53,792 bases of DNA, from NCBI GenBank assembly GCA_030647265.1, contig JAUSJM010000013.1:1-53792 (forward strand), read 5' to 3'. Each line of letters begins with the position of its first letter. Within the stretch, counting starts at the first letter, position 1. A program made the translations under genes and the position numbers. Below are positions 7,435 through 22,699 of this stretch, one piece after another. Source of the stretch: a bacterium. Its GTDB lineage: Bacteria > Patescibacteriota > Microgenomatia > Daviesbacterales > UBA10151. The notes under the pieces were generated by a model. The model had not been told where the DNA came from. It saw only the letters and a program-made list of their open reading frames with translations, and did not search any database.

Positions 7435-8490
7435 CTACACAGGTAGGGGAGAAGAATTTTCAGGTAACCGGAGAGAGAATAAACGCAAGGCTCTCTGGCA
7501 CCCCAAGACCATCTTCTCCTTAAATCGAGCTAAAAATCCACCTTGAGGAACTTTCTGAGCATCTTGAGCTTCCCATTTTTTTCTCATATCTTGAACCTCC
7601 CTGAGTACACCTATACCTTGTGCCTTCCTCCACTCTAGAACAGCCTCAGACTGATGAGCTTTAGCAGTAGAAATAAGATTCAGCATAAACCGGTCATGTC
7701 CCCTGTAGCTTCCCAACTGCTCTGGCCTCCTTGCTAATGCTGTTTCATATAATTTAGAAAGGCTAACTCTTTCCCTCTCACTCCTCTCTCCGACTTGAGT
7801 CAAAACCATGGTATCTTGTTCCGCATCTAGCCCTGTCTTTCTATCATCCAAAATTACGCGGGAAATGGTATCATGGTAAGTTTTATCCCTGCGGTCTAAT
7901 CTTCGCAGTGCTATCTCTAAACATTGGATATTATCTTCAACCTTTCCTTGATTACTGAGGTAAGATAACCAGGGGTCAAAACGTTCCTTCCCTCTTTGAT
8001 CACCCCTCTTCTCATCTCTTAAACTTCGCCTGGCCGCCCTTAATTGATCACTCTTGTCCACAGTATCACGAGCCAGAGAAACTATATTTTGGTCCATTGA
8101 GTCTTCACCAGCAATTAATCCTTTTCTATAAGCCCGGATCAGACAACGCCCTCTTGACTTCGCCATCCTTAAAGGGTCCTCTGTATATCTCCTACTGGCC
8201 CTAAAGAGATCTCTTCCTCCAACAAAAAACCTTTCTCTGCCCATACATTGCTCCCCTAAAGAAGTTTCCAACTCCGCTTTCTTCTCCCCTAGGAAAGAAA
8301 TTTGGGATTGCCAATCCTCCACACCCTGTTTCTTTCGAGCTAATCGTCCTAAAATTATTTCTTTAGCTTGTTCCACACCTAAATAAACTTTCCCTGGCTC
8401 CATTCTACCCCCTACTGGAAAAGGGATAACCTTGGCTAAAGCCCCGGGCTCTCTAGAACTCTCGGATGGCACCATTTCTGTTAATCTCAT
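7435..8490 (-). CDS. Basic, helical hypothetical protein
   Basis: 351 residues, very rich in Arg, Lys and Glu, and mostly predicted helical (for example DQLRAARRSLRDEKRGDQRG). No signal peptide, membrane span or motif that I recognise. The N-terminal 30 residues are Pro/Gly-rich, and the C-terminus is basic and ends LRLPENSSPLPV. A near-consensus promoter (TTGACA, 17 bases, TATTAT) lies just upstream, so it is an expressed single gene. It converges with the 35-residue peptide gene. Coiled-coil or nucleic-acid-binding roles are possible from composition only. Confidence 0.65.
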   Translation of the reverse strand: MRLTEMVPSESSREPGALAKVIPFPVGGRMEPGKVYLGVEQAKEIILGRLARKKQGVEDWQSQISFLGEKKAELETSLGEQCMGRERFFVGGRDLFRASRRYTEDPLRMAKSRGRCLIRAYRKGLIAGEDSMDQNIVSLARDTVDKSDQLRAARRSLRDEKRGDQRGKERFDPWLSYLSNQGKVEDNIQCLEIALRRLDRRDKTYHDTISRVILDDRKTGLDAEQDTMVLTQVGERSERERVSLSKLYETALARRPEQLGSYRGHDRFMLNLISTAKAHQSEAVLEWRKAQGIGVLREVQDMRKKWEAQDAQKVPQGGFLARFKEKMVLGCQRALRLFSLRLPENSSPLPV

Positions 8491-8591: not shown

Positions 8592-9284
8592 TCACCTTTT
8601 TAAGACCTTAGAAAAAACCAATAGGCTTAAATTTAAACCTATAGGAACCAGTAATAATTTATCAACAGTTATCAAAAATGAGGTCAGTCCAGAAAAGTTT
8701 AGGAATCTCAAACTTTCTAACCAGGAAAGGTTCTTGGTAAGATATAAACCTGCCAGGCTTAATATCGCCACAGAGAGAAAAGCTCCTAAAAAAGCCAAGG
8801 CTCCCTCCAAGTCTTTTTTACTGGAGAACATGGTATTAGAGATCTCAAATACAGTATAAAAGGTTAGAAGTACCTGCCAGAGGGGAAGTTTGCCACTTAA
8901 GCTATCTTGTCCCCAGATGAGAATGAGAAGTATTATCCCTAGTCCTACCAAGATGGGAGCCATACCAATAATGAGTCTTCTTAACATATCTGTTTGCCCA
9001 ATTTCCGCACTTCCCAGCCTAATATTATCTCCTTCCATTACCGGGAATATCTCAATCTCTCCTACAGGTACAAACATCAAAGCTGCCACCAGCATATGTG
9101 CCAGTTCATGAATGATGGTTCCAGGAAGATAAAGAAGGGCTAAAAAGGAGACTGTGAAACTTCGGCTTCGGGTCAATCTATAAAACGCTCGAGCAAAATA
9201 AGAGGTGAGTAAATGAGAAAGCCAAAATAAGAGGAATAATTCCCCCACAAAAACTACAAAAAAAACCCACCAGGAGATTACCAT
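8592..9284 (-). CDS. Membrane zinc-metalloprotease-like protein (HExxH)
   Basis: 230 residues with about five hydrophobic segments. A HELAH motif sits in the second (LPGTIIHELAHMLVAALMF, about residues 53-71), the arrangement of intramembrane or membrane-embedded metalloproteases of the M50 kind. A second block, GMAPILVGLGIILLI (about 107-121), resembles the region before the third ligand, but no clear NPxxD/DG motif is present, so catalytic competence is uncertain. The ATG at 9284 follows TATACT by 7 bases (leaderless). The gene is divergent from the giant-protein operon, with only 88 bases between starts. Confidence 0.6.
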   Translation of the reverse strand: MVISWWVFFVVFVGELFLLFWLSHLLTSYFARAFYRLTRSRSFTVSFLALLYLPGTIIHELAHMLVAALMFVPVGEIEIFPVMEGDNIRLGSAEIGQTDMLRRLIIGMAPILVGLGIILLILIWGQDSLSGKLPLWQVLLTFYTVFEISNTMFSSKKDLEGALAFLGAFLSVAILSLAGLYLTKNLSWLESLRFLNFSGLTSFLITVDKLLLVPIGLNLSLLVFSKVLKR

Positions 9285-9372: not shown

Positions 9373-9789
9373 ATGGACGATAATCAAACAGCAACTCAAG
9401 ATGCTGTTCCAACTAGTAGAGCACTTAGTATTCCATCTGAAGTCAGAAGTTTTCTAGAAGGTCTCCTGCAAGATGCAGGGATGAATGCACTAGACGCGGA
9501 AATGAAAGAGGAGATGATGAAAGAGCTTTGTGCCCGTTTAGATAATTTTCTCACCTCTACCATAATAGATAATTTACCAGCAGAAAATCTGGACACTTTC
9601 ATTCAAATGAACGAGGAGAAGAAGCCAAAGTCAGAAATTGAGCAATTTCTAAAGGAGCATATGCCAAATACAGAGGATGTATTTGCAAAAGCTTTTATGG
9701 AATTTCGCGATCTTTATTTAGGAAATGTTTCTGTGGCCAGAAATGCCCCAAAAGCAAGTGACCAAGCTGTAAAACCGGCTGAGGCGTAA
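9373..9789 (+). CDS. Small acidic helical protein (DUF5663-like)
   Basis: 138 residues, acidic, entirely helical in appearance, with a disordered N-terminus (MDDNQTATQDAVPTSRAL) and an Ala/Pro/Lys-rich tail. The core EVRSFLEGLLQDAGMNALDA and the ENLDTFIQMNEEKKPKSEIE region resemble the DUF5663 small proteins I associate with candidate-phylum genomes; that name is from memory and should be checked. The start at 9373 is chosen for its Shine-Dalgarno site. It is followed after 4 bases by the 1869-residue gene, so the two are surely co-translated and perhaps partners. Confidence 0.7.
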   Translation: MDDNQTATQDAVPTSRALSIPSEVRSFLEGLLQDAGMNALDAEMKEEMMKELCARLDNFLTSTIIDNLPAENLDTFIQMNEEKKPKSEIEQFLKEHMPNTEDVFAKAFMEFRDLYLGNVSVARNAPKASDQAVKPAEA

Positions 9790-9793
9790 AGCT

Positions 9794-12700
9794 ATGGATA
9801 ACACAGTAGAGATTGGAACTGGAATACCTACTACCGAGGCAAGTAGGACTGCAGAGAAGCGTGAAACTCGGGAACAAGTTGTGGAGGCGTTAAATGCCTC
9901 CTATGCTGTTTTGGAAAAAGTTCCTGAAGATAAATTAACCCCAAAAGAACAAGCAGCCCGAGAATTGATCCGTGGAGCCAAGGCTAAAACAATCGACCAA
10001 GACAGATTTTATTATCTTAATCATTTTAAGGACGAGCAGGGCCACGAGTATCGTCAACGGGAATACATGCCGGTTGACGAACTGATTGATTTTTTAACCG
10101 AACAGATTAAAAGCGATAAGCTTTCCGAGGATGAGGTGAACCAGTACCAAGATTACCGTGGCATCCTTATTAGAAACAGTAAGTCTTATTACCGAATTCC
10201 CAACCGAACCCAACGAGCACGTCTAAATGCCAGGGTAAAACAAGAATACGACAGGATACAAGTTGATCCGAGGCTCACAACAGGCAATCCTCAAGAGGAC
10301 TATTTCCAAGCCTCCCAAACTATTACTAAACGCCGGGAACTTGTACCTCCACCTAAACAAAAAGAGAAACAGCAAGAGGATCAGCATCATCAAGATAACC
10401 AGCATGATGACGGAAGTACTGTTCAGGAAATTCGCCGGGATTTTGTGATTGCCAGACGGGACGTCGATATTCGAAAGCGCGCAGCTGAGCTTGCCGAAGA
10501 GCAACTTAGAGGTGAGATGCGTCGAGGGAGTGCCTTTAATCCATTAAATTGGCCAAGAAAGATCCGCTTAAGAATCCTCGAAGAATATTACCGCCAACAA
10601 TATATAGGTAGAGCTGAAAGCGCGATGATTGCCAATAACAACTCTTACCTAGATATGGACGTTGTGCATAACGCCATGAAGAATGCCAATGAAAATATTG
10701 ATAGGGAGAGAGTAGCCGGACGATCCAAGGTAGAGCAAATTAAAACCCAGGCTCAAGAGGGAATTAACCTTGAAGGGACCACTCTTCGTGAAGCAACCGG
10801 AGCCCTCAAGGAATCCATCATGAGTGACATTATCAGGCCGATTGTAAACGGCGCCGACAGCCCTCTTCTTGGTGCACAAATTCAAAATGCGGCTGATGTA
10901 CAAAGAGTTCTAAGAGCCTTTGTCGAGCAACACCAAAATAATCCTGATGTCCAAGCTATTTTTGGTAGAGATGCCACACAATTTGGGAGACTGGCAAATT
11001 ATTTTGCTTCTGATATCTTAGAAACAGCTGAGGCAGTTCGAGCAGACTTAGCTGCTCACAAATATGCCATAGAACAACTAAACGAGGTTGTTAGAATCCA
11101 ACTGGCCAACACCAGTTGGGCAGCCGAGACTCAAGCCAACTTTAATCAGGTAGACCGGGCTGTAGCTTGGGCAGAAAGACACAGGCTAACAGGAATTTTA
11201 ATTAACCCCGCCACTATCGGAATTGCCTTTTCTTTGGGTACCTATGGATTAATGCGTGCAGCAAACATGGGTGCCAAAGCTATGGTCTGGGTTCCCGGAG
11301 CAGGGATGCTTGCAGGAGGACTTTTTGCTGCTTTCCGCCGAAATTATGATCTCAAAGTCGACAGAGCTTCTTATCAGGTAGAAAATGTTGCCTATAATGC
11401 TCAATTTGATTCCAACACCGCCCACCGACGAGAAGCGCTGCAAAGATATGATTACAATGTCGCCTCAGTAAATGAACTCTTAAATGGCGGCGGGCAGGAA
11501 ATGCTTACCACCACAGACCGTAGGTCAATGCAGGAATTACTGGCGGCTGATTTGACTGTCGCAGCGAACCAAGAAGCGCTGACCCGCCGAATGACTGAGA
11601 TTAGGACACGTCTTGATTTTTCTGCCCGTGAGAAAGTTGATTTAATTAAGTTTACAGGAGGACGTCCAGATGTTTATGGCCGAACCTTGGTAGAACAAGG
11701 CCGGCTAGAGTTAGTCAAAGCCATAGTTCAAAGTACCAAAGCTTTAAGAGATGCTGGTCTTTCGGAAGTTGATATTACGGCACTGTCTAATCGCTTTTCC
11801 GGAGAGTGGAGCAATCGTTTTACTAAAAACCGTGAGCAACAGGACCGGGCATTTGCTCACTACAGATTAAGAAATGCTATCGGAGCGGGAGTTTTCGCAG
11901 GTGTTGCAGGATTTGCCGGGGGACTAATTACTCAAGAAGCTTGGGCCCAAATAGGCAGACACGTCTTTAATCAGCAAATCGGGGATACGGTACTGGAGAA
12001 ACTGACCAAGGGAGATCTTTCCTGGAATCCCTTGGACTGGATGAACCCAACCAGAGCCCAAGGATTTGCTTCGGATACCGCTAAAGAGCTTTATAACCAC
12101 CCTGGAAATACTCCAATTAGCCACGATCTAACCATGCGCACCTTCTTTGATCAAAGCACAGGAGAACACAAAGTAGACTTCCTTGATACCAACCAGCACC
12201 AAATAACTGGGCCACCCATGCATCTTACCCCAGATGGTCATATTATTACCTCCGGAGATGTTAGTAACCTTCCTTCTAATGTTAGACAATTTGTGGAAGG
12301 ATCAGGATGGCAAAATCATGCTTATACCAATCCAGATTTGAATATTCATGAAAAAATTCAGGATTATATAAGTGGGAACCAACATGAAATCTTTACCCAT
12401 GGCAATACAATCATTAATTTAGACGCACCAAATCACACCATTGCCATTGAGGACTGGCCAACCAAAACCATCGCTCATGGAATAATTAATCCTGACGGCA
12501 GCTTTACTTTTGATAAAGCCAACCCTGAAAATGCCAACATTGACTGGACTGTATTCACCGACCGTCTTCATAATGAAGCTTGGGGAATTCATACTGAAAT
12601 CATTAACTCTCAAGCTTCGGGAGGAACAGTTTTGGACCAGCTCCTTAGCCAAAACCCAGATGCCCTAAAAACCCGAGGCATTATTGAAACTGATCAGTTT

Positions 12701-15403
12701 AAAAAGACCTGGAACTTTCATGTCCTGCGACCAGATATTGTTTCAGCAACAGGAAATCACACCCATAATGAATTAACTTTGCACCTGGGAGGAGAATACC
12801 AAGTCGGTGTTATGAAAGACGGTCAGGTAATTCCCGGTGACTTACGACACGGTATGGGTAACCCAGGTGAACTAAATTTTGGCGGGGAAATCCACGGAGG
12901 GTTAATCCAATCGCACTTAACAGGAGTTGCGCCAGCTGATGACCCACAACTCGACAGGTTAATCCAGAATAATCATGGACTAAGACTTTCCGATATGGTT
13001 TTTGTGGTCGATCTGACAAATGGTAAGCAAATCATGGTCCCCTCTGATGCTCTTGGTAATGCTAAACTGCCTACAGAGTTGTTTGATCCCTCAAACGGTC
13101 ACCTGCGAGGTGTCGAGTCTATTGCCTCAGCCTTCCTGGAAAAACAGGATGGTACATTGCTTAAAGCAGGTGACTTAGTAAATTCCGGACAAGTCCCCGG
13201 AGGCACCATACTTCATTCACTAACCTCTGAGCGCTTTTTACCAGGTGAGGTACCACCTCTTCCTCCGGTAACTCATGAAATTATCAATATAGACCCACCA
13301 AATGCCACAGAGTTTACTCCGCCGCCGCCAACTGAACTTGCACCTCCACCGATTATTCCCATACCCTTTGCCCCCAGACATCCCTTGGAACCTATAGACA
13401 GGAGAATTATTATTTATTACCCAGGAGGTGAACCTACCGCAGAAGAAAGGTCGTTTTACGAACAAAGAAGATCTCCAAGATTAAATTCTAACCCTCAGGG
13501 AACACTAAATGCCAATGAGGAGATTGATTGGTATTTATCACAACAATCACCGGAATATAAACAAGAGTTGGAAAGAATGAATAGTACTATCGGTGAACCA
13601 ATGACCAGTGAATGTAGGGTAGCTGTTTGTATTGCAGCAGCATCACACCAAGAAGGAAAGAATATCTATAAAACACTGCTTCAATATACTGATCAACGAG
13701 ATTCTAAGGGTAACTTAATCGATCCAGGTAAATACGAAATCATTCTTTTTTTGAATAGACCAGACGGTACCACTCCAGATAATACCGCTTCAGAAGTTAA
13801 GAAGTTTCAAAGAGAGCATCCGGAGATTAAGGCTCGGATAATTGAAAAAGTCTTTCCTGCTCGTCAGCCAATGGGAATAATCTCTAAGTATGTTGCCGAC
13901 ATGGCACTACTCCGATCAAGGAAAAGAACCAACCCAATTCATGCGGATCTAATTATGGCCACCAATGATGCTGATGCTGAGCTTGTCTCTAAGGGTTATA
14001 TCAATGCCATCATCCGCGATTACGAGAATCCCCAAAAAAAGCATATCGACGCCGCCTTGGGCAAAATTGATTGGGATCCTGAATCGTTTATTCAATACCC
14101 AGGATTCCATGTCGCTAATCGCTTCATTCAGTATATTGATGCCACCATACGACATTCACCAAGTAAAAGGGCTATCGGTTCATCTGGAGCTAACTTCACC
14201 ATGAAATCTTCTATCTATGCGGCTATTGGCGGATACATTGAAGATCACGGCGCCGGTCAAGATGTCGATCTTTCCAAAATGATTAAGGATGGAAGACGTC
14301 CTAGAAATGGAGGCTTAACAAAAGATAATTTTCCCATTGATTACATTAATCCTGCATGGATTGTGACAAATCCAAGGAGGGGCGTAAGTTATTACCGTCA
14401 AGGTAGGCCTATTGTTCGTCAATGGAGTGACTTTGATTCCCGTCAGGGAATCCGAGAAAATGATTGGCGTTCAAAAACTGTAGCTGCAGAATCTATAGAT
14501 ACTATGGATATTGAGCATCTGCAAAACGATATCAACGCTACAATTGAAGACTACGGAGTAGGAGTAAACTCTGACAATGTAAAGAGGGCTCTCGGTTTCC
14601 TCAACATCAAATATAAAGTAGAAAGCGGTAAAGTTATCCTGATTGATATTTCTAAATTGAAAGAAGACTTAAGAGAGTACGCTAGAGAGAGTAGGAACCG
14701 AATTAATGAACTTAAAAATCAAAAGCTAACAGGAGGGACCATTCCAACTCCAGCTGTAAGCTCTGGACGTGCTGGCAGGAGATCAACAAGTACAGCCAGA
14801 ACCCCAACACCTTCTCCCATAGTTATACCTTCTGCATCACCAACTCCAGTAGCTACAGTTATAACCCCAACCATAGCTCCAGCTGTTCAGCCAACAACTA
14901 CCATACAACCAATAACGGTAGAAGCAACTCGCCCCCAACCCGAAGCCTTACCTGCCCGGATAGATAGAGAACTTGCCGAAAGTCCCAACCCTACTGCCAG
15001 TCCCAAGGCTACTCCTCAAGAGGTAGTTAATTATTTAAAAACTATTCCGTTGGGTTCAGGCGCGCATATTGAAGAACTGATTCCACGTATGGATAACGGT
15101 CAACTTTTTCTAAGCGGAAAAATACCAGTTAAAAAATTTGGTGCTCCCGTGGGCAGTGCAAAATTTAATATTAGGATCGATAACAATCCCACTGGAGGAG
15201 TTTCAGTTATCCCACTGCAAATGGAGCTAACAGGCGCTGTAGTGTTAAAAAGAGCGGAGATTGATAATGCTATCTCCAATATCAACACGTTAATCACAGC
15301 TCAGCTTAATAAGCAAATTAGCGACAAATCCTGGGAAGCAACTGGCTTTCATATAGCCGGAGATGAATTGGCTTTTGACTTCAGAAAGAAACCTACTCCA
15401 TAA
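9794..15403 (+). CDS. Giant membrane-associated protein with embedded GT2 glycosyltransferase domain
   Basis: 1869 residues. Visible layout: a charged helical region (1-460); hydrophobic pair (about 465-515, TIGIAFSLGTYGLM and MLAGGLFAAF); more helices; a third hydrophobic stretch (about 695-716, GAGVFAGVAGFAGGLI); a beta-rich, Asn/His-rich region (720-1150); a Pro-rich linker (1153-1199); a GT-A glycosyltransferase domain (about 1272-1547); a helical stretch; a Ser/Thr/Pro linker (1650-1740); and an alpha/beta C-terminal domain. The GT marks are VAVCIAAASHQEG, a DxD (NDADAE, D1392 and D1394) and GSSGANFTMKSSIYAAIGGY. No signal peptide is visible. I know no described family with this order. 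Probably an envelope-linked sugar transferase; substrate unknown. Confidence 0.8.
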   Translation: MDNTVEIGTGIPTTEASRTAEKRETREQVVEALNASYAVLEKVPEDKLTPKEQAARELIRGAKAKTIDQDRFYYLNHFKDEQGHEYRQREYMPVDELIDFLTEQIKSDKLSEDEVNQYQDYRGILIRNSKSYYRIPNRTQRARLNARVKQEYDRIQVDPRLTTGNPQEDYFQASQTITKRRELVPPPKQKEKQQEDQHHQDNQHDDGSTVQEIRRDFVIARRDVDIRKRAAELAEEQLRGEMRRGSAFNPLNWPRKIRLRILEEYYRQQYIGRAESAMIANNNSYLDMDVVHNAMKNANENIDRERVAGRSKVEQIKTQAQEGINLEGTTLREATGALKESIMSDIIRPIVNGADSPLLGAQIQNAADVQRVLRAFVEQHQNNPDVQAIFGRDATQFGRLANYFASDILETAEAVRADLAAHKYAIEQLNEVVRIQLANTSWAAETQANFNQVDRAVAWAERHRLTGILINPATIGIAFSLGTYGLMRAANMGAKAMVWVPGAGMLAGGLFAAFRRNYDLKVDRASYQVENVAYNAQFDSNTAHRREALQRYDYNVASVNELLNGGGQEMLTTTDRRSMQELLAADLTVAANQEALTRRMTEIRTRLDFSAREKVDLIKFTGGRPDVYGRTLVEQGRLELVKAIVQSTKALRDAGLSEVDITALSNRFSGEWSNRFTKNREQQDRAFAHYRLRNAIGAGVFAGVAGFAGGLITQEAWAQIGRHVFNQQIGDTVLEKLTKGDLSWNPLDWMNPTRAQGFASDTAKELYNHPGNTPISHDLTMRTFFDQSTGEHKVDFLDTNQHQITGPPMHLTPDGHIITSGDVSNLPSNVRQFVEGSGWQNHAYTNPDLNIHEKIQDYISGNQHEIFTHGNTIINLDAPNHTIAIEDWPTKTIAHGIINPDGSFTFDKANPENANIDWTVFTDRLHNEAWGIHTEIINSQASGGTVLDQLLSQNPDALKTRGIIETDQFKKTWNFHVLRPDIVSATGNHTHNELTLHLGGEYQVGVMKDGQVIPGDLRHGMGNPGELNFGGEIHGGLIQSHLTGVAPADDPQLDRLIQNNHGLRLSDMVFVVDLTNGKQIMVPSDALGNAKLPTELFDPSNGHLRGVESIASAFLEKQDGTLLKAGDLVNSGQVPGGTILHSLTSERFLPGEVPPLPPVTHEIINIDPPNATEFTPPPPTELAPPPIIPIPFAPRHPLEPIDRRIIIYYPGGEPTAEERSFYEQRRSPRLNSNPQGTLNANEEIDWYLSQQSPEYKQELERMNSTIGEPMTSECRVAVCIAAASHQEGKNIYKTLLQYTDQRDSKGNLIDPGKYEIILFLNRPDGTTPDNTASEVKKFQREHPEIKARIIEKVFPARQPMGIISKYVADMALLRSRKRTNPIHADLIMATNDADAELVSKGYINAIIRDYENPQKKHIDAALGKIDWDPESFIQYPGFHVANRFIQYIDATIRHSPSKRAIGSSGANFTMKSSIYAAIGGYIEDHGAGQDVDLSKMIKDGRRPRNGGLTKDNFPIDYINPAWIVTNPRRGVSYYRQGRPIVRQWSDFDSRQGIRENDWRSKTVAAESIDTMDIEHLQNDINATIEDYGVGVNSDNVKRALGFLNIKYKVESGKVILIDISKLKEDLREYARESRNRINELKNQKLTGGTIPTPAVSSGRAGRRSTSTARTPTPSPIVIPSASPTPVATVITPTIAPAVQPTTTIQPITVEATRPQPEALPARIDRELAESPNPTASPKATPQEVVNYLKTIPLGSGAHIEELIPRMDNGQLFLSGKIPVKKFGAPVGSAKFNIRIDNNPTGGVSVIPLQMELTGAVVLKRAEIDNAISNINTLITAQLNKQISDKSWEATGFHIAGDELAFDFRKKPTP

Positions 15404-15434
15404 CTTGATATAAGCAAAGCTTGAAAACTTCGTT

Positions 15435-15440
15435 TATAAT
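15435..15440 (+). promoter_or_regulatory. -10 element of recG (leaderless)
   Basis: Perfect TATAAT, 7 bases before the ATG at 15448. It decides that ATG over the in-frame TTG at 15421. Confidence 0.6.
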
Positions 15441-15447
15441 TCCTTCT

Positions 15448-16098
15448 ATGGAGTTAACCACATCCTTGAAATATCTTTCTGGAGTAGGGCCTGCTATAGC
15501 TAAGAGATTAGAAAGGCTAGAACTTTTTACTGTAGAAGATTTAATTAATCATTACCCCTTCAGGTATGATGATTTTTCTAAGATCTCTAAAATCTCTGAA
15601 GCTAAATTTGGTGACACTGTAACTTTTAAAGGTGATGTCTGGGCCATCAAAAATACTTATACCAGATTCAGAAGAGTTCTTACCAAAGCCACCTTAAATG
15701 ATGGAAGTGGCTCTATCGAGCTGGTGTGGTTTAACCAACCCTGGCTTATAAAGAATTTAAAAGTTGGTGATAAGATCCAAGTTTCAGCCAAAGTAGACCG
15801 TTCTGGTTCAAAACTTACCCTCGTTTCTCCAGAATGGGAGAAAGTAACACCAACTCCCGAGGTTGAGGATTTTAAACCTCGGGAGTTAGGTCTCCATACC
15901 GGAAGATTGGTTCCCATCTATCCGGAAACTTATGGCATCAACTCCAAGTGGCTTCGCATAAAGATCGCCGCAGTTTTACCCCACGCCTTACCTCAAATTG
16001 AAGATCCTATACCGGACTTTATTCAGCAGAACCTACTACCACTTTCCAAGGCCATAGAACAAATTCATTTTCCCCAAAAATTTGATCAATCTAAATAA
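15448..16098 (+). CDS. recG: RecG helicase, N-terminal part (ends at an in-frame TAA)
   Basis: RecG is a branch-migration helicase for stalled forks. These 216 residues are the wedge domain: YLSGVGPAIAKRLERLELFT, NHYPFRYDDF, and an OB fold with TFKGDVWAIKN and ATLNDGSGSIELVWFNQPW. The frame stops at TAA (16096-16098), but reading on in the same frame gives AKKRLSCDELFYIQLATQ, the conserved RecG A-[RK]-x-RL-x-x-[DE]EL block, and runs without a break into the helicase part. So this is one gene with a single nonsense codon. A perfect 13-base inverted repeat (15852-15887) is inserted in the OB-fold region. Confidence 0.85.
   Translation: MELTTSLKYLSGVGPAIAKRLERLELFTVEDLINHYPFRYDDFSKISKISEAKFGDTVTFKGDVWAIKNTYTRFRRVLTKATLNDGSGSIELVWFNQPWLIKNLKVGDKIQVSAKVDRSGSKLTLVSPEWEKVTPTPEVEDFKPRELGLHTGRLVPIYPETYGINSKWLRIKIAAVLPHALPQIEDPIPDFIQQNLLPLSKAIEQIHFPQKFDQSK
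15852..15887. repeat. Palindromic element inside recG
   Basis: Arms AACTCCCGAGGTT (15852-15864) and AACCTCGGGAGTT (15875-15887) are perfectly complementary, with a 10-base loop. It is translated as TPEVEDFKPREL. The CCCGAGGTT core also occurs in the palindromes at 24268 and 53231 beside RAYT 2 and RAYT 3. Confidence 0.85.
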
Positions 16099-16221
16099 GC
16101 TAAAAAACGACTATCTTGTGATGAACTATTCTATATCCAGCTAGCTACTCAAAAGACAAAATTACAGTGGAGAGAAAAGAAACTTACCCATTCTTTTGAA
16201 GTAGAGAAGGATTCTCTTGAC

Positions 16222-17487
16222 ATGTTTTTTACCAGCTTATCATTTCAGCTTACTGATGCCCAAAAAAGAGTTATTCAGGAGGTAGTTACAGACTTATCCA
16301 AAAATTTCCCCATGAACCGCTTAGTTCAGGGAGAGGTTGGTTCAGGAAAAACTGTGGTGGCAGCAGCCGTTATTTACTTAGCACACTTAAACAATCTTAA
16401 ATCGATCATTATGGCTCCCACCGAAATTTTAGCTTTCCAGCATTTTGATACTCTATCCAGATTACTGGAACCTTTTGGAATCAAGGTGGGAATTTATACC
16501 GGAAGCAGGAAAAGGATACAGGGTGATCTTCCTGTTATTGTTGGCACCCATGCCCTTCTTTCTAAAAGCCTGGAGCTTAATAACGTTGGGCTGGTGGTTG
16601 TTGATGAGCAACAAAGATTTGGAGTAGAGCAAAGGACTCTTCTTAGAGACAAAGCAGAGTCTCCTCATTTTTTAACAATGACTGCTACCCCTATTCCCAG
16701 AACTGTGGCTTTAACCATCTATGGTGATCTGGATCTCTCAGTGATTGATCAGATGCCGGTGGGGAGAAAAGTTGTTCGAACATATTTTGTCCCCCAAAGC
16801 AAGAGATTGGATGCCTATAAATTTATTGAAAACCATATCAAGGAAGAGGAACAAGCTTACATTATTACCCCGTTGATAGAAGAATCAGAAACTCAAGCTT
16901 CGGCTAAAGCTGCCAAGGTAGAATACGAAAGGTTGCAAAAGCAGGTTTTTCCCAAATTAAGACTAGGACTTTTACACGGAAGACTTAAGTCTAAGGAAAA
17001 AGAGGCGGCTATTAATGCTTTTAAAAACCACGAGCTGGATATTCTAGTCTCTACTTCAGTTGTAGAGGTGGGAGTTGACGTACCCAACGCCACTATAATG
17101 GTTATTGAGGGAGGTGAGAGGTTTGGGCTAGCTCAACTACACCAGCTCAGAGGGAGGGTAGGAAGGGGAGAACAACAATCATACGCTTTTCTCTTCACGG
17201 AAGAAGAAAACCCTCAAGTGATAAACCGTCTGAAAAACCTGGAAAGGATTCATGATGGCCTCACTTTATCTGAGTTAGACCTGAAAATTCGGGGCGGGGG
17301 AGAGGTTTTCGGCACCGCCCAAAGCGGTCGTTGGAATCTGAAAATAGCCTCGCTTTCCAATCTCTCGCTGATTGAAAAAACTAGAGCTGCAGCCCAAAAA
17401 GTTTTGGCTCAAGATCCTAGCCTTGACAAATACCCCAATCTTAAGCGAAAATTGTCTAGCTTGGCGCCGGAAGTCTCACCGGACTAA
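16222..17487 (+). CDS. recG: RecG helicase, motor part (after the in-frame TAA)
   Basis: 421 residues carrying the complete helicase motor: FQLTDAQKRVIQEV (Q-motif region), Walker A GEVGSGKTVVA, motif II DEQQRFGVEQR, motif III TMTATPIPRT, and motifs V-VI VSTSVVEVGVDVPNA and LRGRVGRGEQQSYAF, then a C-terminal QSGR-type tail. In this reading it would start at the ATG at 16222, but the frame is open back to the TAA at 16096, and residues between are RecG-like. Either the locus is a recent pseudogene, or the TAA is read through or is an assembly error, or the two halves work as separate chains. rpmF follows after 13 bases. Confidence 0.85.
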   Translation: MFFTSLSFQLTDAQKRVIQEVVTDLSKNFPMNRLVQGEVGSGKTVVAAAVIYLAHLNNLKSIIMAPTEILAFQHFDTLSRLLEPFGIKVGIYTGSRKRIQGDLPVIVGTHALLSKSLELNNVGLVVVDEQQRFGVEQRTLLRDKAESPHFLTMTATPIPRTVALTIYGDLDLSVIDQMPVGRKVVRTYFVPQSKRLDAYKFIENHIKEEEQAYIITPLIEESETQASAKAAKVEYERLQKQVFPKLRLGLLHGRLKSKEKEAAINAFKNHELDILVSTSVVEVGVDVPNATIMVIEGGERFGLAQLHQLRGRVGRGEQQSYAFLFTEEENPQVINRLKNLERIHDGLTLSELDLKIRGGGEVFGTAQSGRWNLKIASLSNLSLIEKTRAAAQKVLAQDPSLDKYPNLKRKLSSLAPEVSPD

Positions 17488-18338: not shown

Positions 18339-19037
18339 ATGAATGATGAATTTGTACAGATATTAAATAACCTCCGTTTAAAGCCAAACAACCTTTCTTT
18401 TTATCGGACAGCCTTTACTCACCGTTCTTTTCTTAATGAAGCCAAAGAGGTTAAAGAATCCAATGAGAGGCTGGAGTTTTTAGGCGATGCCATCTTGTCT
18501 TTTATCACTTCCGGTTTTCTTTTCCACAAAAGGGCCCACGATGCGGAAGGGGACCTCACAAATTTACGCTCTTATATTGTTAAAACGGAAAGTTTAGCCC
18601 GCGTCTCTCAAAAGTTGTCCTTAGGAAAATTTCTCCGCATGTCCAAAGGAGAGGAGTTTTCCGGAGGACGGCAAAACCCCCAAATATTGGCCAACACTTA
18701 TGAGGCTCTCTTGGGGGCGATCTTTATGGATTTGGGGATTGAAGCAGCTCAAACTTTTATTTACCAGACTCTTTTGCCTCTGTTTGCCACAGAAATTACT
18801 AAAGGTGCTCCCCGGGATCCTAAAAGCGAGTTGCAGGAGATGGTTCAGGAAAAGTTTCAGGTGTCCCCTAAGTATAAGATTATCGGCACAATAGGTCCCG
18901 ACCACGCCAAAAAATTTACCGTGGGTGTATTTGTCAAAGACGAATTACTCGGACGGGGAAGCGGTTCCAGCAAGCAACAGGCTGAAGAAGACTCTGCTAA
19001 AGAGGCTTTAAAAAAACTCACCGAACACCTCACATGA
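18339..19037 (+). CDS. rnc: Ribonuclease III
   Basis: Cuts double-stranded RNA in rRNA and mRNA processing. 232 residues. The catalytic signature is NERLEFLGDAIL (about residues 40-51), with the second acidic site in NTYEALLGAIFMDLG. A C-terminal dsRNA-binding domain starts at DPKSELQEMVQEKF and ends with GSGSSKQQAEEDSAKEALKKL. The ATG at 18339 gives a normal length; the frame is open to a TTG at 18297 inside the ACP-like gene. Its stop overlaps the next start (ATGA). Confidence 0.95.
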   Translation: MNDEFVQILNNLRLKPNNLSFYRTAFTHRSFLNEAKEVKESNERLEFLGDAILSFITSGFLFHKRAHDAEGDLTNLRSYIVKTESLARVSQKLSLGKFLRMSKGEEFSGGRQNPQILANTYEALLGAIFMDLGIEAAQTFIYQTLLPLFATEITKGAPRDPKSELQEMVQEKFQVSPKYKIIGTIGPDHAKKFTVGVFVKDELLGRGSGSSKQQAEEDSAKEALKKLTEHLT

Positions 19038-19966
19038 AGCAAAAAGAAGAAAGTAAAGTTTACGATCTTTCCATTGTTATTCTCAGCTTCAATGTTAAAG
19101 AGTTACTACTGAACTGTCTCCGCTCAATCTATGAAAATAAAGATGCTAAAGACTCCTGGCAGGTCATGGTGGTAGACAACGGTTCCTCTGACAACTCTTT
19201 AGAGGCAGTCAAGAAGGCTTATCCCCGGATAGAAAGCTATCAAACAGGACAAAATTTAGGTTTTTCCAAAGGCAATAATTATACCATCCCTTTCCTTAAA
19301 GCCCCGGCTGTTTTATTTTTAAACCCAGATACCAAAATTGTCGGTGATGTCATCCAAAAATCCCTTGATCTTTTAAACTCTGATCCCCAAATCGGAGCTT
19401 TAACTTGCCGGGTAGAGCTGCCTAATGGTAAATTGGATTACTCCTGCCACCGGGGTTTTCCCACTCCCTGGAACTCCTTAACCTACTTTTTAGGGCTGGC
19501 CAAAAGATTCCCTAAACTTAAGCTTTTCTCAGGTTATACTGCTACTTACTTGGATATTAACACCACCCATGAGATGGAGTGCGGCAGCGGGACATTTCTC
19601 ATGGTAAAAAGAGATGTCGGAGATAAAATAGGCTGGTGGGACAGTGACTACTTTTGGAACGGGGAAGATATTGAGTTCTTTTACCAGGTCAAAGAATTAG
19701 GATATAAAACTTATTACTATGCTGGAGGAAAAGTTATCCACTATAAAGGCTCATCTTCCGGACTCCAATCCACCTCCCAAGCCGTCGTTCCCAAGGAAAG
19801 AAAGATCACTTCAGCCAAACATGCCACGGAAGCAATGAGGATCTTTTTTATGAAACATTACTATCACCAGTACTTTCCGGGCCTACGGGAGTTTATCCTT
19901 TTAGGGATATATCTTTTAGAAAAAATGAGAATTCTTAAAATAAATAGTGGCTTAAAATATGAATGA
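19034..19966 (+). CDS. GT2 family glycosyltransferase (rhamnosyltransferase-like)
   Basis: 310 residues. GT-A fold marks: LSIVILSFNVKELLLNCLRS at the N-terminus, VVDNGSSDNS, NLGFSKGNNYTI, the DxD equivalent FLNPDTKIVGD, CGSGTFLMVKRDVGDKIGWW and the acceptor-side GEDIEFFYQVKELGYK. These match WbbL-like transferases that add rhamnose or related sugars to cell-surface glycans on the inner face of the membrane. It overlaps rnc by 4 bases and the next GT gene by 8, forming a three-gene glycosyltransferase run. The sugar donor cannot be read from sequence. Confidence 0.85.
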   Translation: MKQKEESKVYDLSIVILSFNVKELLLNCLRSIYENKDAKDSWQVMVVDNGSSDNSLEAVKKAYPRIESYQTGQNLGFSKGNNYTIPFLKAPAVLFLNPDTKIVGDVIQKSLDLLNSDPQIGALTCRVELPNGKLDYSCHRGFPTPWNSLTYFLGLAKRFPKLKLFSGYTATYLDINTTHEMECGSGTFLMVKRDVGDKIGWWDSDYFWNGEDIEFFYQVKELGYKTYYYAGGKVIHYKGSSSGLQSTSQAVVPKERKITSAKHATEAMRIFFMKHYYHQYFPGLREFILLGIYLLEKMRILKINSGLKYE

Positions 19967-20876
19967 TTTAAACCTTTCTGTTATTGTTTTAAGTTTTAAC
20001 ACCAAAGAGATCACTGATGAGTGTCTGAAAAGACTTCAGTCGTCAGTCGTCAGTTGTCAGAAAAAATTGCGAAACAAGATTGAGGTGATCGTGGTGGAAA
20101 ATGCTTCCTCTGATGGTTCCCTGGAGATGGTTCAACAAAGACACCCTTGGGTAAAGTTGATTGTCTCTCATGAGAACACCGGTTTTTCTAAAGGTAACAA
20201 TATCGGCATGAAAGCCTCCCAATACCCTTATATCCTACTTTTAAACTCAGACTCTTATGTTGAAGAGGGTACTTTAGAAACATCTCTCCGCTACTTTGAG
20301 AGCCACCCCAATTGCGATGCCTTGGGCTGCCGGCAAATTCTGCCCAATGGCAATATTCAAGTCAGCGCAGGATTCTTACCAACACCTTTAAACACCATCC
20401 TTTGGATCAGTGGCTTAAACATCATTCCGGGGGTAGAAAAGTTGGTCAAACCAATACACCCCAGGGACAAATCATTCCTGAATCATGAGCATCAGGCAGA
20501 GTGGGTCATGGGAGCTTTTTTTATGATGACCAGAGAAGTTTATGAAAAAACAGGAGGTTTTGATGAATCCATCTTTATGTATGGAGAAGAGGTGGAACTT
20601 TCCAAAAGGATTAATGATTTAGGCTTTCAAATATTTTATGTTCCTTCCATTACCATTACCCACCTGGATAAAGCCAGCAGCCAGCATCTTTGGGAAAAAC
20701 CTCTTTTGAATGAAATCAAAGGTCTGGTACGTTTTTTTAAGCAACACTATCCCCAAAGCTACTTTCTCATTAAAATAGTATTGGCCTTATCGCTGGCTCT
20801 TAGACTAGTAATCTTTACTTTATTAAGAAACACCCAAAGGCAAAAAGCTTACTGGCAGGCCTTAACTGTAATCTAA
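19959..20876 (+). CDS. GT2 family glycosyltransferase
   Basis: 305 residues, a paralogue of the preceding gene: LSVIVLSFNTKEITDECLKR, VVENASSDGSLEMVQ, NTGFSKGNNIGM, LNSDSYVEEGTLE, and the C-terminal MGAFFMMTREVYEKTGGFDE and GEEVELSKRINDLG. A hydrophobic stretch near the C-terminus (FLIKIVLALSLALRLVIFTL) suggests membrane attachment. A 7-base tandem repeat (20036-20060) is inserted after the first helix and encodes LQSSVVSCQ, lengthening the loop between the first strand-helix unit and the second strand. It overlaps the next gene by one base. Confidence 0.85.
   Translation: MNDLNLSVIVLSFNTKEITDECLKRLQSSVVSCQKKLRNKIEVIVVENASSDGSLEMVQQRHPWVKLIVSHENTGFSKGNNIGMKASQYPYILLLNSDSYVEEGTLETSLRYFESHPNCDALGCRQILPNGNIQVSAGFLPTPLNTILWISGLNIIPGVEKLVKPIHPRDKSFLNHEHQAEWVMGAFFMMTREVYEKTGGFDESIFMYGEEVELSKRINDLGFQIFYVPSITITHLDKASSQHLWEKPLLNEIKGLVRFFKQHYPQSYFLIKIVLALSLALRLVIFTLLRNTQRQKAYWQALTVI
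20036..20060 (+). repeat. Heptamer tandem repeat inside a GT2 gene
   Basis: TCAGTCG, TCAGTCG, TCAGTTG, TCAG: 3.6 copies of a 7-base unit. Seven is not a multiple of three, so gain or loss of one copy would shift the frame: a possible phase-variable site. Confidence 0.8.
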
Positions 20877-22699
20877 TGAAAAAAGTAGCTGTTATTACTG
20901 TTAACTATAACGGAGAGAAAGATACCTTAGAGTTTTTGGAGTCTCTAAAAAAATTAGAAACCACAGGCTTGGAAATTAAAACCATCGTGGTAGACAACGG
21001 TTCCTCTGATAACGGTACTCAGGAAACCCTTAAAGCATACCCTGGGATAGATCTACTACAAACAGGGAGTAATACCGGCTTTACCGGAGGGTACAATCGG
21101 GGCTTGGAATATGCCCAAGCCTGGGATGCTGATTATTATTTTATTATCAACAACGATACTTTAATTGACAGCCCAAATCTTTTATCTGAGCTTATCAAAA
21201 CCCTGGACTCTGATCTTCAAATAGGCTTAGTCAGCCCTAAAATTTACTTTGCTCCGGGGTTTGAATTCCATAAAGAAAATTACAAAAAAGGAGATCTTGG
21301 TAAAGTTATTTGGTATGGGGGAGGGGAGTTTGATTGGGATAATATCATTTCAAAGCATTGGGGAATAGATGAGGTGGATAGTGGTCAGTTCAGTAAATTG
21401 CAGCAGGTTAACTTTGTCTCTGGATGCTGTCTGCTCATTAAAAAAGAGGTTTTACAGAAGGTGGGAACTTTTGATGAAACTTTTTACGCTTACTTTGAAG
21501 ATAACGATCTGTCCCAAAGGATTACCAGAGCCGGATTTAAAAAATATTATAATGGAACCGTCAGTATTTTTCATAAGGTCTCCCAAACCAGCGGTATCGG
21601 TTCACCGATTACCGATTATTATGTCACCAGAAACAGGCTTATCTTTGGTTTTAGGTATGCCAGATTAAGAACCAAGTTTGCCTTGCTTCGCCAGGCCTTT
21701 GGATTTCTCCTCACCGGTAGACCAGCCCAAAGGCAGGGAGTGATAGATTTCCTTTTAGACAACAGAGGCCCCAGCCCTCAGTTCCAGCAAGACTCTCCTC
21801 GTCCCTTTTATCCCGTTAAGCTTTCCCTGGCCATTGTTAATTACAACACTGCAGACTTAACTCAAAAAATGCTCCAAAGCATCTACAAAAAAACCTCCGG
21901 TATTCAAGATCAGCTTACCGAGGTAGTGCTTTTAGATAACGGACATATTGACCCTTGCGATAAGTTAGTTAAGAATTTTCCTGAGGTTAAGTACCTCCAA
22001 AATGAAGAAAACACCGGCTTTACTAAAGGTTACAACCGGGCTATGAGATACTGCCGGGGGGAGTATATTCTCATGCTCAACTCTGACATGGAGGTCAGGG
22101 ACAACTGTCTTTCAGAGATAACTAAAGCTGCTGACAATTTTGAGGGAAAGGCTGTTTTAGGAGGCAGATTATATTTCCCAGATGGCAGTTCTCAAGATTC
22201 AGTTTATCATTTTCCCACAATTTGGGGAGTAATTAAGGAATACTTTTTAAATATCAAGGGGGCTTTCTTTATGTATGTTCCCAAACCAGAAGCAGTTACC
22301 GAAGTAGAGGGAATTGTGGGAGCCTGTATGTTAATCCCCAGAAAAATTATAGATAGAATAGGCTTTCTAGATGAGAACATCGTTTCTTATTTTGAAGACC
22401 ATGAATACTGCCGGAGGCTCGCTAGAAATAATATCCCTGTCTATTTTATCCCTTCTGCTAAGTTTATCCATCACCATGGGGCCTCTTTCAAGCAGTTAGG
22501 GACCCAAAGTTTAGAAATCCATAGAAAGTCTTCCATCTATTATTATGGAAAACTTTATTACATTCTTTTATACTTCACCCTGCTCTTTGTCCAAAAGATC
22601 ACAGGCAAAAGACCTCCTGGAAGCATGGAACCTTCTGCCACCAAAACCACCCTCTTCCAAAAATTTAATAACTTAATAAGAAATCTAAACCCCAAATAA
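20876..22699 (+). CDS. Fused double GT2 glycosyltransferase
   Basis: 607 residues with two complete GT-A domains in tandem. The first (1 to about 300) has VAVITVNYNGEKDTLEFLES, VVDNGSSDNGTQ, NTGFTGGYNRGLEYA, INNDTLID and FDETFYAYFEDNDLSQRI. The second (from about 313) has KLSLAIVNYNTADLTQKMLQ, VLLDNGHID, NTGFTKGYNRAMRYC, LNSDMEV and SYFEDHEYCRRLARNN. The two domains could add successive sugars, as in bifunctional polymerases. It is the last of the three GT genes downstream of rnc; a TTTTGCT/AGCAAAA hairpin lies 30 bases after the stop (22730-22751) without a T run. Confidence 0.88.
   Translation: MKKVAVITVNYNGEKDTLEFLESLKKLETTGLEIKTIVVDNGSSDNGTQETLKAYPGIDLLQTGSNTGFTGGYNRGLEYAQAWDADYYFIINNDTLIDSPNLLSELIKTLDSDLQIGLVSPKIYFAPGFEFHKENYKKGDLGKVIWYGGGEFDWDNIISKHWGIDEVDSGQFSKLQQVNFVSGCCLLIKKEVLQKVGTFDETFYAYFEDNDLSQRITRAGFKKYYNGTVSIFHKVSQTSGIGSPITDYYVTRNRLIFGFRYARLRTKFALLRQAFGFLLTGRPAQRQGVIDFLLDNRGPSPQFQQDSPRPFYPVKLSLAIVNYNTADLTQKMLQSIYKKTSGIQDQLTEVVLLDNGHIDPCDKLVKNFPEVKYLQNEENTGFTKGYNRAMRYCRGEYILMLNSDMEVRDNCLSEITKAADNFEGKAVLGGRLYFPDGSSQDSVYHFPTIWGVIKEYFLNIKGAFFMYVPKPEAVTEVEGIVGACMLIPRKIIDRIGFLDENIVSYFEDHEYCRRLARNNIPVYFIPSAKFIHHHGASFKQLGTQSLEIHRKSSIYYYGKLYYILLYFTLLFVQKITGKRPPGSMEPSATKTTLFQKFNNLIRNLNPK

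Follow-up and report, generated by a model that had tools for sequence, protein, structure and literature searches.

What is served, in a patescibacterial cell, by a protein of 1,869 residues that carries a glycosyltransferase (GT) domain deep within its chain and is encoded directly behind a small acidic protein? The question is raised by a 53,792-nt stretch of DNA from the order Daviesbacterales (contig JAUSJM010000013.1 of assembly GCA_030647265.1; referred to here, at its full length, as the window), which belongs to a genome of 784,921 bases in 35 contigs. The two open reading frames (ORFs) of the unit are separated by 4 nt (9790-9793), and the second is the largest ORF in the window; their coordinates and sizes (Table 1) agree with a first-pass annotation made from the sequence alone. 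The pair is a real and conserved two-gene module, hitherto undescribed, and it recurs across the Patescibacteria.

Conservation of the gene pair and the DUF5663 family

The small protein (138 residues, pI 4.43) matches PF18908 (DUF5663; E = 3.4e-9, 37.6 bits against a gathering score of 23.7), a family mentioned in no paper of the literature searched. Its ATG at 9373 is preceded by GGAAGGTGAG, and homologs start at approximately the same position. A DUF5663 profile (A5) matches 103 of the 381 genomes of the phylum. When loci are picked by DUF5663 alone, an ORF of at least 800 residues lies directly downstream (same strand, no more than 300 nt away) in 19 of 22 strong matches, compared with a background of 4 in 115 (Fisher p = 1.4e-16), the limits of 300 nt, 800 residues and E < 1e-15 for the split having been chosen after the data were seen. 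The giant itself has no Pfam or NCBIfam match and no sequence relative in the PDB, and a contig scan with it as query gave no match. Homologs were found in 10 of the 57 genomes of a first search, the window's own included, and a scaffold profile detected them in several families of the class (26 of 280 genomes). Custom profiles divide the giant into scaffold N, scaffold M with the hydrophobic segments, beta region, GT2-like domain and C-terminal part. Scaffold, GT2-like and C-terminal domains follow one another in this order in four giants of family f7 that are paired with DUF5663, and also in the giant of L088, where no DUF5663 was detected; scaffold together with GT2-like domain recurs in several further families, other classes included. 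Conservation of the pair, one of the two points on which the first-pass annotation had made its proposal depend, therefore extends far beyond the genus.

DUF5663 resolves into a giant-linked and a secF-linked group. Of 45 genomes of the window's family, 8 have a very strong match (E ≤ 1e-35) and nearly all a weaker one. In each of the 11 genomes read the weaker paralog immediately precedes secF, with secD and then, between it and the paralog, a conserved gene for a protein of ∼290 residues upstream in 10 of them; no secD is among the rows listed around DUF5663-secF in L282. The placement of the paralog directly before secF suggests that DUF5663 is a Sec-linked export factor, and the earlier proposal that the small protein is a regulator or chaperone gains support from it.

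Several observations adjoin those on DUF5663. The ∼290-residue protein of the secDF operon (L277:3694-4569 and equivalents) is highly conserved and has no PDB relative; it was considered as a homolog of the N-terminus of the giant and rejected, the two not being homologous. A DUF5663 match to PDB entry 8vd6 (E = 2.1e-7), a designed repeat protein, was discarded as an artefact, and weak matches that lie upstream of genes for UvrD helicases were set aside as unrelated. At L215:8958-15413 (G313) two ORFs separate DUF5663 from its giant, whose GT2-like domain scores 6.6e-134 against a profile built mainly from the window's family, and a transfer between classes is possible.

Architecture of the giant and variation of its enzyme domains

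The domain order first proposed for the giant, a helical N-terminal part followed by hydrophobic segments, a beta-rich region, a Pro-rich linker, a GT2 domain with DxD, a Ser/Thr/Pro linker and a C-terminal domain, holds, and each segment can be located (Table 1). The hydrophobic segments are present but marginal, with best 19-residue Kyte-Doolittle means of 1.4-1.7. The hairpin has basic flanks on both sides in most homologs and is modeled as helices at 472-496 and 501-533, partly below 50 in the predicted local distance difference test (pLDDT). The beta-rich region spans approximately residues 715-1165, with a well-modeled core, and a fold search of the PDB with the beta-rich domain and scaffold returned no match at E ≤ 0.001.

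Table 1. Features of the two-gene unit and its divergent neighbor (AF2, AlphaFold model).
Feature	Coordinates	Strand	Basis
Small acidic helical protein, DUF5663 (PF18908), proposed chaperone of the giant	9373..9789	+	PF18908 match; adjacency to giant; secF paralog
Giant protein, 1,869 residues	9794..15403	+	ORF; homologs in relatives and other families
N-terminal domain of the scaffold, residues 1-200	9794..10393	+	SCAF_N profile recurs in relatives; AF2 blocks mostly 72-88 pLDDT, residues 21-190
Gly/Ala-rich hydrophobic helical hairpin, residues 465-515	11186..11338	+	Hydropathy; basic flanks; two modeled helices
Third hydrophobic segment, residues 693-713, proposed inside-to-outside crossing	11870..11932	+	Drop in Lys + Arg; modeled long helix 658-723
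Beta-rich domain, residues 755-939	12056..12610	+	AF2 pLDDT ∼75-89
Pro-rich linker, residues 1165-1225	13286..13468	+	26.7% Pro
GT2-like GT-A domain, residues 1226-1640	13469..14713	+	AF2; Foldseek; hhalign; motifs
Ser/Thr/Pro linker, residues 1641-1712	14714..14929	+	31.9% Ser + Thr, 16.7% Pro; model residues 422-488 below 50 pLDDT
C-terminal alpha/beta domain (possibly TULIP-like, lipid-binding), residues 1713-1869	14930..15400	+	Recurrence; weak Foldseek matches
Divergent membrane protein with HExxH, M50/site-2-protease-like	8592..9284	-	Motif conservation; PF02163 below cut-off

The second point on which the first-pass annotation depended was the GT segment, which Foldseek places among GT-A enzymes (6yv7, E = 7.4e-8) from an AlphaFold model of residues 1226-1869 with a mean pLDDT of 83 and mostly above 90 in the GT part. 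In hhalign the segment aligns with the genome's own canonical GT2 domains (probability 96%, E = 2.3e-9), and its motifs are NDAD (1391-1394) for DxD, GAN (1465-1467), and QD (1489-1490) for the acidic base. It has no curated Pfam match (0 families); relatives L081 and L034 do match PF00535. On the predicted fold, the giant thus carries a genuine GT-A/GT2-like domain. The GT-A fold, DxD, GxN and (E/Q)D are common to it and to GT2/GT-A enzymes such as PcManGT (6yv7), hyaluronan synthase and the mannosylglycerate-type synthases, from which it differs in being embedded at residue 1226 of a giant and in an identity to 6yv7 of 14%. A weak match of the GT profile to triosephosphate isomerase (∼1e-4) conflicts with the predicted fold and was dropped.

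DxD has been lost in five f7 genomes and in L081 with the GT domain retained, as would be expected if the giant were a structural or adhesive protein whose GT-fold domain mainly binds glycans, catalysis being secondary; giant proteins of Patescibacteria have indeed been proposed as adhesins (PMC10066038), and those of related lineages as adhesins or predation factors. However, DxD is present in 13 of the 19 GT domains surveyed, the window's included, together with most of the GAN/ED-type motifs, and we regard a mainly binding role as very improbable. The giants described from Omnitrophota and Patescibacteria (PMC10066038, PMC12419801) are likewise very large membrane proteins, which in Omnitrophota can include polysaccharide-biosynthesis domains, but those of Omnitrophota have ORFs above 20 kb and little conservation, whereas the giants considered here have 1-2.5 thousand residues, a recurring scaffold and a dedicated partner; the likeness is one of description.

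The C-terminal domain, first described as novel, has no Pfam family but is not unique to this giant, since other giants also end in it and some smaller ORFs contain it. Weak Foldseek matches to SPLUNC1/BPIFA1 and P47 (E 0.03-0.2) indicate that it is possibly a TULIP-like lipid-binding domain. Our own guess that it might be LmeA is unsupported, there being no Pfam match and PF11209 being absent from 137 genomes of the class.

The C-terminal enzymes behind the scaffold vary, GT2, GT9 and kinase each being seen; the GT2-like module is also widespread. A GT9 domain stands behind the matched scaffold in G037 and on a following, overlapping ORF in G012, and a Ser/Thr kinase follows GT2 behind the matched scaffold in G021. 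Enzymes also occur on the next ORF, as a GT2-like domain fused to APH (G143; L076) and as ATP-grasp/GNAT (L218). PP2C (L091, where the giant lies on the opposite strand from its DUF5663) and sortase (L213) are found in DUF5663-linked giants that our scaffold profiles do not match. Two loci have unusual arrangements: at L030:8308-15322 (G012) the giant is split into overlapping ORFs of 1134 and 1214 residues, the second bearing the GT9, through either a frameshift or fission, and at L028:2643-9627 three ORFs behind the giant share a domain of ∼180 residues, joined to a GT2-like domain, to nothing recognized, or to the C-terminal domain.

Such variation on one scaffold, and the occurrence of PP2C and sortase in further giants, could point to a host-directed effector in which the giant is an insertion or delivery scaffold for exchangeable C-terminal enzymes that work inside or on a host cell, and DUF5663 is the cognate chaperone. 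The marginal hydrophobicity of the segments and the gene for a small acidic partner immediately upstream are in keeping with this, as is the view that Patescibacteria live on other cells (PMC11665869). Against it, five f1 genomes have the unit at one and the same place, between tyrS and recG, the widely recurring GT2-like module is an old part and not random cargo, and no immunity-like gene was recognized; an effector is in our judgment unlikely.

Proposed orientation in the membrane and candidate functions

Before the third hydrophobic segment 10-20% of residues are Lys or Arg, after it 5-12%, and this content falls across the segment in all 15 homologs, by ∼30-60% in 13 and by only ∼15-20% in L028 and L219. 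Cysteine is scarce (0.11% against 0.65% in other ORFs), and sortase, present in one giant, is normally an extracytoplasmic enzyme. Together these features suggest an orientation with the N-terminus inside and the C-terminus outside, in which the GT domain would sit outside the cell.

We favor, tentatively and at somewhat less than an even chance, the explanation that DUF5663 is the dedicated chaperone of a membrane-anchored giant with outer GT-A and possibly lipid-binding modules. The first 690 residues would stay in the cytoplasm, with the marginal Gly/Ala-rich segments as membrane anchor and everything from the beta region through the GT-A domain to the C-terminal domain outside. DUF5663 would keep the long, weakly hydrophobic giant competent for export by Sec/SecDF, and the neighboring M50-like protease may trim or release it. 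Once outside, these modules could work on glycans, or on glycans linked to lipids, either on the cell surface or where a neighboring cell is contacted. The analysis demonstrates that the two genes stay adjacent, that giants share a scaffold, that the GT domain has a GT-A fold and that a DUF5663 paralog is linked to secF; the chaperone and export role, orientation and substrate of the pair are what we infer beyond this. LytR-CpsA-Psr (LCP) genes next to the giant in three f1 genomes (G021, G003 and G012), some of them with Tat-like N-termini, also speak for the proposal. Small acidic chaperones are encoded upstream of large secreted proteins in type III secretion systems and among Eag-Rhs and LXG partners, and the gene order, acidity and small helical partner are alike here; the likeness lies in these features, and no secretion system of these types was identified.

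A number of points weigh against this explanation. The scaffold model is poor (mean pLDDT 62), the secF linkage was read within the window's own family only, and some giant homologs lack any hydrophobic segment above 1.35. Neither a signal peptide nor a convincing membrane segment is present in stand-alone proteins related to the GT and C-terminal modules (G021 and G037), as would fit a location in the cytoplasm; given these and the marginal segments, the topology remains something that we infer. GT-A enzymes, kinases and APH moreover need nucleotide substrates, which are not normally found outside the cell.

The same stand-alone modules would suit a cytoplasm-facing envelope-glycan machine without an odd number of membrane crossings, in which the GT uses nucleotide sugars inside the cell to build a lipid-linked glycan that LCP proteins attach to the envelope. 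LCP genes are neighbors of the giant in the three f1 genomes named above, an LCP-like ORF lies between tyrS and recG in L105, and a reading of positions by hand puts LCP no farther than ∼15 kb from the giant in 8 of 38 genomes, where roughly 2 would be expected; GT9, APH, kinase and ATP-grasp/GNAT modules would also suit glycan decoration. However, four of the 8 LCP cases come from one family (f60), the initiating sugar transferase PF02397 is located elsewhere in the genomes, f7 kept a GT domain devoid of DxD, and Lys + Arg drops across the third segment; we consider such a machine somewhat unlikely. LCP glycopolymer ligases are separate genes, and none adjoins the window's giant. Of the surface-glycan machine first envisaged, the fold and the gene pair stand, but substrate and direction are unproven; the case that the giant makes or attaches a surface glycan is circumstantial (three relatives have LCP next to the giant, and in two GT9 takes the place of GT2) and fits poorly with the suggested orientation, by which the GT would be outside the cell.

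The favored chaperone explanation could be widened to a phylum-wide export platform, in which the secF-linked family gave rise to dedicated chaperones exporting anchored giants, and the exchangeable enzymes that these carry outside (GT-A, GT9, kinase and others) act on a host cell; in this extended form it is distinctly doubtful.

Neighboring genes and significance

The membrane HExxH gene is divergent from the pair, as first annotated, across an 88-nt gap with overlapping promoter-like sites, although promoter-like matches are near the chance number over the region. HE..H and a downstream MFSSK(K/Q)D motif are invariant in nine relatives, and the match to PF02163 (M50; E = 0.24, 11.1 bits) is below the cut-off of 27.2. 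This gene accompanies the pair in f1, f38 and other lineages, but roughly a dozen f1 genomes have the gene and not the pair. In three Daviesbacteria contigs tyrS and recG are present with no such unit between them.

Elsewhere in the window, recG (15421-17487) reads as two ORFs owing to a single in-frame TAA near 16096-16098 in an otherwise continuous frame, which is either a nonsense change or a sequencing or assembly error. Three GT2 genes with four PF00535 domains occupy 19034-22699; the genes on either side are less far apart in relative L029, which suggests that the three were inserted near the giant. An ORF at 7435-8490 on the reverse strand encodes a basic, Arg-rich helical protein of 351 residues that has no family match and no counterpart in the same slot of the relatives read.

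Patescibacteria are abundant, ultrasmall and mostly uncultured, and very little is understood of the machinery at their cell surface. The pairing described here provides a first contextual clue to DUF5663, and a small/giant module with a Sec-linked paralog and swappable enzymes offers a testable handle on how these cells may build their surface or act on their neighbors.
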